NCBI GenBank assembly: GCA_023511455.1
Contig: JAIMBJ010000009.1
Coordinates: 1 to 64,000 of the forward strand
DNA: 64,000 nucleotides
From: Bacillota bacterium
Lineage (GTDB): Bacteria; Armatimonadota; HRBIN16
Reading direction: 5' to 3'
Shown here: positions 52,368-53,281 of the stretch, piece after piece
Position numbering within the stretch: the stretch's first letter is position 1
How the letters are laid out: the number at the start of each line of letters is the position of its first letter
Notes under the pieces: generated by a model
The model's input: only the letters and a program-made list of their open reading frames with translations
Told to the model about the DNA's origin: nothing
Database searches by the model: none
Translations under genes and position numbers: made by a program

Positions 52368-52421
52368 TTAACAAACCTTTAACACTTCTGTAACATCTGC
52401 TTAACTTGCCTGAAGTAGGAT
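52368..52421 (+). promoter_or_regulatory. Pho-box-like operator with downstream -10
   Basis: Four hexamers, TTAACA (52368), TTAACA (52379), GTAACA (52390) and TTAACT (52401), are spaced exactly 11 bases apart. A TAGGAT -10 follows at 52416-52421. The last two repeats cover the place of the -35. The pattern matches binding sites of PhoB/PhoP-type OmpR-family response regulators. It should activate the prepilin-like gene that starts at 52454, and may also affect the divergent gene. Confidence 0.65.
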
Positions 52422-52453
52422 AAAGGCAGCGAACCTGATAAGGAGGACATGTC

Positions 52454-53281
52454 ATGAAACGCAACGCCTTTACCCTGATCGAGCTGCTGGTGGTCATCGC
52501 GATTATCGCGATACTGGCAGCCATCCTGTTCCCTGTCTTCTCACAGGCGCGCGCGAAGGCACGCGCGGCGAGCTGCCTCAGCAACACCCGCCAGCTGGGT
52601 ACCGCCATGCGCATGTACGCGCAGGACTACGACGGCTACTTCGTGTTCAACTGGTGGGAGTGGCACATCCCCCTGCAGCCCTACATCAAGAGCTGGGACA
52701 TTTTCGTCTGCCCGCAGTCCGCAGCGCCCAAACCGCAGATGATTGAGTTTACCGCCGACGACAACTGCTACACCTGGGGCGACGACCCTCCGTACGTGAA
52801 GCTGGTTGGCACCTTCCCCGGCAATGTGCCGGCCAACGTGCGCACCGCGCGAGGATGCTCGAAGCCCGCGCCCATCATCTACGGCAACTACTCGAAGAAC
52901 GAAGAGCTGATTGCCAACTACGGCTACTACCGCACCAGCTACAGCGGCTATGAGCACAACGAGGCGCAATGGGAGACCACCGCCGACCTGATTATCATCG
53001 CCGAGTCGCGCAGCGGGTCTGAAGATGTGCCACCCGACACCAACCCGTATAGCCCGAACAATGCCTCCTATATCGAGCCAGGCGGCACCACGTGGAACGA
53101 GGTGTTCGACCACCTGTCGGGGCGACACAACGGCGGCATCAACTGCACCTTCGCCGACGGACACGCCAAGTGGTACCGCTATGAGTGGTTCAAGACCTAT
53201 GAAGGACGCTTTGCCATCAGCCCGCCGATGGCACGGCTATGGCGCGATGGACAGTTAACCGACGACCAGCGATGGCCATAA
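52454..53281 (+). CDS. Prepilin-like secreted protein (type II pseudopilin N terminus)
   Basis: A 275-residue protein with a prepilin leader and hydrophobic helix ([20 protein letters not shown]; cleavage expected before Phe6). A large C-terminal domain contains [23 protein letters not shown] and ends with [16 protein letters not shown], the H-x9-DG type motif. Many such single pseudopilin-like proteins are encoded in Armatimonadota and Planctomycetes; their role is unknown. AGGAGG lies 7 bases upstream. Likely co-transcribed with the lipoprotein gene after it. Confidence 0.92.

Follow-up and report, generated by a model that had tools for sequence, protein, structure and literature searches.

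Introduction

The PhoP box of Bacillus subtilis is composed of two to four TT(A/C/T)ACA units repeated at about 11 bp. Phosphate control may also extend to protein export, as in Pseudomonas, where the Hxc type II secretion system, which exports alkaline phosphatase, is Pho-controlled. A PHO box has been defined as two 11-nt direct-repeat units (PMC4415409), and the cyanobacterial Pho box, which belongs to the SphS-SphR system, consists of at least three tandem CTTAACCT units separated by 3-bp linkers (PMC1906773).

Genomes of Planctomycetota, Armatimonadota and their relatives each encode dozens of prepilin-like proteins of the H-X9-DG/DUF1559 type, which have no known function. DUF1559 is a domain of unknown function, the expression of which is stress-dependent in Rhodopirellula; the genome of Rhodopirellula baltica contains 74 DUF1559 genes (PMC2754498). 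Here we describe a repeat array located upstream of one such gene in a stretch of 64,000 nucleotides of armatimonadotal DNA (hereafter the window). Judging from its sequence and from the genes that share it, the array is very probably the operator of a phosphate-starvation (Pho) promoter for a prepilin-like protein and a small lipoprotein.

Results and Discussion

Organization of the promoter

Direct reading of the sequence revealed four repeats of the TTAACA type with a start-to-start spacing of exactly 11 bp (starts at 52368, 52379, 52390 and 52401), which lead into the -10 element TAGGAT (Table 1). The first-pass annotation of the window had reported this arrangement and called the repeats 'exact', a description that holds for the spacing but not for the sequences, two of which are TTAACA and two of which are variants. 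It had also noted the lack of a normal -35 element, and indeed the usual position (52393-52398) is occupied by ACATCT, which is not TTGACA-like. Two features define a Pho box, namely at least two direct repeats at an 11-bp period and the location of the repeats near the -10 in place of the -35, and both are found in the window array.

Table 1. Features of the prepilin promoter region and other genes of the window
Feature	Position	Strand	Remarks
Divergent gene, 129 aa	51945..52334	-	on the other side of the promoter; array points away from it
Pho-box unit 1, TTAACA	52368..52373	+	invariant or nearly so in genus orthologues
Pho-box unit 2, TTAACA	52379..52384	+	TTAA(C) kept in orthologues
Pho-box unit 3, GTAACA	52390..52395	+	most degenerate of the four; in orthologues only AA never varies
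Pho-box unit 4, TTAACT	52401..52406	+	TTAA invariant in orthologues
-10 element, TAGGAT	52416..52421	+	starts 15 nt past the start of unit 4; TA invariant in orthologues
Ribosome-binding site, AAGGAGGA	52440..52447	+	kept in orthologues
Prepilin-like protein, 275 aa	52454..53281	+	ATG at 52454; N-terminal methylation motif, N-terminal part of DUF1559, C-terminal H-X9-DG motif
Small lipoprotein, 62 aa	53297..53485	+	15 bp downstream of the prepilin gene
Second prepilin-like protein, 224 aa	58890..59564	-	without Pho box

The promoter had been assigned to the PhoB/PhoP type. The array is best read as a Pho box, but its sequence is that of the Bacillus PhoP and cyanobacterial SphR boxes (TTAACA and CTTAACCT, respectively) and not that of Escherichia coli PhoB. 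With the B. subtilis PhoP box it shares TTAACA units arranged head-to-tail, the 11-bp period and the dispensability of a -35 element, whereas the organism belongs to another phylum. With the SphR box, arrays of this kind share the TTAAC core, the 11-bp period, the presence of at least three units and the position before pst and phosphatase genes; unlike in the SphR box, about half of the arrays have the start of the last repeat at a fixed distance of 15 nt from the -10, and prepilin-like genes rank among the most frequent targets.

Distribution of the array in the genome

The four-unit pattern matched the window once, and no match was obtained in 100 dinucleotide shuffles of the window, even when three mismatches were allowed. 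A search of the 3.85-Mb genome for four KTAAC units at an 11-bp period (three mismatches at most) yielded just three distinct places: the window site on contig C9 and one site each on contigs C59 and C2. All three are located upstream of prepilin-like genes, with 13-54 nt between the start of the last unit and the start codon of the longest open frame. A weight matrix trained exclusively on other species scored the three sites at 51.7 (window), 47.5 (C59) and 34.3 bits (C2), the next independent site at 17.6 bits and the best site in shuffled sequence at ∼7 bits (about 0.4 Mb scanned, both strands counted). In another scan, the pattern was built from the window and pstS sites together; since it was designed from both, their perfect scores are circular and only the lack of other strong matches is informative.

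A shorter version of the box, made up of a pair of exact TTAACA units with TAGACT at 15 nt, precedes a prepilin gene on contig C22, which lies directly 3' of a beta-propeller phytase gene; the phytase gene itself has no clear box upstream. The genome contains 31 matches to H-X9-DG, and no box was found before the remaining paralogues with a readable upstream region. Because only about four of the 31 paralogues carry it, the Pho box is not the driver of the whole H-X9-DG class, contrary to what the first-pass annotation had suggested.

The pst operon and the phylum-wide pattern

If the array were a Pho box, it would be expected upstream of the phosphate uptake genes of the same genome, as the first reading of the window had already pointed out. 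The pstS gene, the identity of which was confirmed by TIGR00975, is immediately preceded by TTAAAA-n5-TTAACA-n9-TACGATAA, i.e. by two units in 11-bp phase, and its -10 element, TACGAT, is positioned at the same 15-nt offset as that of the window promoter. Six species of the genus have the two-unit box before pstS (G000, which is the genome studied here, G001, G002, G003, G005 and G009). Two further congeners have a full array upstream of a porin gene that is in turn followed by pstS; the porin is Porin_O_P (Pfam) in G006. The pst operon (L071, G000:C27:28000-44500) has the gene order DUF3187 protein, pstS, pstC, pstA, pstB, a 513-aa gene and phoU.

Searches across the phylum extended this picture. 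Of 45 arrays, 23 have TANNNT at offset 15 and at most six have it at any other offset tested (background 0.7%), a result that is independent of how the arrays were gathered, because the -10 formed no part of the search for the 45 arrays. When three TTAA units at 11 bp were combined with TANNNT at 15 nt, 119 sites were retrieved in 48 of 201 phylum genomes; in the same 201 genomes the reversed pattern gave four sites and a 10-bp period one. Prepilin-like genes lie downstream of at least 34 of the 111 sites that could be classified, for which the probability is below 1e-20, taking an assumed 2-4% share of such genes. Genes downstream of the 111 sites also included PstS (all seven candidates were confirmed as PF12849), PF04185 and PF01663 phosphoesterases and an OprD-type porin. 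Other arrays in the phylum lie upstream of an alkaline phosphatase gene and of a Porin_O_P gene that is itself followed by pstS, and one genome has an array before a gene for a PhoB-like regulator. The box thus also stands before pst and phosphatase genes of the genome or lineage, as is characteristic of a Pho box.

Short A/T-rich words at helical spacing are easy to over-read, and the repeats might in principle be a chance or structural feature (A/T-phased bending) that involves no regulator. We consider this extremely improbable in view of the empty shuffles, the nearly empty reversed and 10-bp controls, the fixed -10 offset, the conservation of the footprint and the strong tie to particular gene classes.

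Conservation of the locus

Orthologues of the window gene are 90-95% identical over 275 aa, and the nearest relatives that bear a name are assemblies assigned to Armatimonadota/Chthonomonadia, for example Bacterium HR16 and Chthonomonadia bacterium Ch118. In the alignment of the upstream regions, little or no variation is seen in the TTAA cores, in the AA of unit 3 or in the TA of the -10, in contrast to the spacers, which drift. In one assembly (L131) the array is retained though the region 5' of it is quite different. The loss of the array from homologous loci would have counted against the Pho reading; it is present in all genus orthologues found, as well as in a homologue from another family of the phylum (G033, L051). 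Planctomycete prepilins collected by similarity have no box. On a tree of boxed and unboxed prepilins, 20 changes of box state were counted against 34 in shuffles, which indicates clustering but is weak evidence, because the boxed sequences were gathered by their box.

The candidate regulator

The genome encodes one response regulator of the OmpR type, located at G000:C10 (L200, 5463-6140), and a gene for a PAS-HisKA kinase is adjacent to it. The best model for the regulator is PhoB (269.6 bits, under the equivalog cut-off of 296.2), and for the kinase PnpS/PhoR (PnpS, 366 bits, under the equivalog cut-off of 400); since both score below these cut-offs, the names PhoB and PnpS are not certified. 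RegX3 is the best PDB match of the regulator. The systems SenX3-RegX3, PhoR-PhoB and PnpS-PnpR provide the best sequence matches of the pair, from which it differs in the sub-threshold scores, in its location away from pst and in the absence of an array upstream of the regulator gene. As it is the single OmpR-type regulator of the genome, alternative regulators for the window array are unlikely.

That same regulator might bind the array as a general one, concerned with the envelope or stress like MtrA, WalR or RpaB, with phosphate as one output among others. Such a role would fit with its being the only OmpR-type regulator, with the missed PhoB cut-off and the WalR/YycF, MtrA and RpaB models close behind PhoB, and with the many boxed genes that encode surface proteins. 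However, the best models of both partners are phosphate ones (PhoB and PnpS/PhoR), and most targets other than prepilins that could be identified in the genus and phylum either serve phosphate uptake or are phosphatases, which makes a general regulator unlikely.

On the favoured reading, that of a Pho promoter, phosphate scarcity would lead the PnpS/PhoR-like kinase to phosphorylate the PhoB/RegX3-like regulator. The four direct repeats, the last of which starts 15 nt before the -10, take the place of the -35; dimers of the regulator would bind them head-to-tail along the same face, and RNA polymerase would be recruited without a -35, turning on the genes for the prepilin-like protein and the small lipoprotein.

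Related arrays with other targets

From the content of the regulon we infer that phosphate is the signal. The module alone does not prove this, because related arrays precede nitrogen or other genes. GTAAC/GAAAC-type arrays with an 11-bp period and the -10 at 15 nt are located before glnA, glnB and amtB in other lineages of Armatimonadota (L060 in G024, L046 in G011 and L065 in G013), and these are probably GlnR-like nitrogen boxes. The window array might likewise be a target of a nitrogen-responsive OmpR-type regulator acting on GTAAC/GAAAC units at 11 bp, given that the period and offset are equal and that one window unit is GTAACA. A GlnR box consists of alternating GTnAC and GAAAC units before nitrogen genes. 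The distant arrays are G-first, in contrast to the window array, which has three T-first units and no GAAAC, and the window site was accordingly rejected as a GlnR box. Furthermore, the genome has one OmpR-type regulator and its box precedes pstS, and the glnB upstream regions of the genus are without a phased TTAAC box. A nitrogen box at this position is thus very unlikely.

The glnB upstream regions (L330-L337) contain a different element, a conserved TTAAG pair with a 10- or 11-bp period located ∼25 nt before TAGAATATA. Two units located close to glnB (C4:85796) were considered as a further site of the regulon and rejected, as the expected offset lacks a -10 and the spacing is 10 bp in several congeners; the full sequence of the 854-aa gene beside them gave no grounds for regarding the product as a phosphatase.

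TTAAG-type arrays (TTAAn-n6-TTTAAG), again with the -10 at 15 nt, occur in several genomes of family f7 (L236, L276, L279, L285, L291, L292, L294, L298, L299, L301 and L312), where they precede genes for a family of large membrane proteins (FIANRASGPPRLELSA) and for small lipoproteins (EKCPVAGCWF). They probably represent a second OmpR-type regulon, not related to phosphate. In other lineages, different regulators probably make use of the same 11-bp scaffold. At L040 (G047:C27:353-467) a minisatellite of about ten tandem GTAACTCTCCC/GTAACTCTCTC copies, with an 11-bp period, imitates the box.

The prepilin-like protein and the small lipoprotein

The 275-aa protein matches Pfam families PF07963 and PF07596, and NCBIfam models TIGR02532 and TIGR04294 above cut-off; all the features by which the DUF1559/H-X9-DG prepilin-like family is recognised were found in it. 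Its AlphaFold2 model (pLDDT 64, moderate confidence) combines a beta head with a long N-terminal helix (residues 8-58). In the PDB, the top three fold matches of the model are type IV pilins, with only the helix matched and E values above 0.2, which are not significant. The protein was also considered as the type II secretion pseudopilin GspG and rejected, since TIGR01710 gave 31 bits against a cut-off of 88.85, with the N-terminal helix alone being matched.

The gene for the small lipoprotein is probably located on the same transcript as the prepilin gene, and it is kept 3' of the latter in six of the eight genus loci examined. The lipoprotein had no match in Pfam or NCBIfam; it has a conserved tail, CADKPGPPPGAPPATINQQ...PPTYGQTREEQKEGQ.

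Phosphatase neighbours and possible role of the prepilin

Boxed prepilin genes are often followed by phosphatase-type genes: PF04185 phosphoesterases (C2 of this genome and L077), a phytase (L323), a purple acid phosphatase (L258) and a metallophosphatase (L322). At L256, L259 and L281 the products are beta-propeller proteins similar to the N-terminal portion of PF04185 enzymes and incomplete at the end of the stretch. No phosphatase was present among nine genes located 3' of unboxed paralogues in the genome. The comparison involves ten genes against nine, and because the sample is small and the boxed neighbours were hand-picked, the association is a lead and not proof.

Once synthesized, the prepilin might enter the membrane and be processed by a prepilin peptidase, and it could be a surface or pseudopilus component that helps to export or hold phosphate-scavenging enzymes. 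This suggestion comes from the fact that boxed prepilins repeatedly adjoin secreted phosphatases or phytase, whereas the unboxed paralogues of this genome do not. There is a resemblance to Pseudomonas Hxc in that pilin-like proteins under phosphate control, here predicted from sequence, are encoded next to phosphatase genes; unlike in Hxc, the H-X9-DG prepilins occur singly and no secretion operon is linked to them, so the mechanistic link is only suggested.

A Pho-regulated prepilin may serve something else, such as a structural or adhesive appendage of starved cells or the uptake of DNA as a phosphorus source. This alternative concerns the last and least certain step of the explanation and overlaps with the assignment of the array to a Pho promoter. 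The window operon has no phosphatase alongside, just the lipoprotein, and the C59 operon is likewise without one; moreover, the resemblance of the protein model to type IV pilins is confined to the N-terminal helix. Set against this are the phosphatase or phytase genes that adjoin boxed prepilins elsewhere, including those on C2 and C22 of this genome. We therefore regard a role other than export as a serious possibility.

Implications

What appears to be new with respect to the literature searched is the placement of H-X9-DG/DUF1559 prepilins in a predicted Pho-type regulon, as we found no report there of DUF1559-type prepilin genes as Pho targets; the box itself matches known kinds. A Pho box is thereby proposed for Armatimonadota, a poorly studied phylum for which none was found described in that literature. 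More tentatively, and rather doubtfully at present, dedicated H-X9-DG subfamilies of Armatimonadota might be phosphate-starvation proteins that export or display the secreted phosphatases and phytases with which they are paired, and the class as a whole might consist of nutrient-specific surface adaptors, with each paralogue in its own regulon. For a class of proteins without known function, the sequence-level link of particular prepilin subfamilies to a predicted phosphate regulon and to secreted phosphatases suggests under which growth condition, and with which regulator and partner enzymes, such a protein can be tested.
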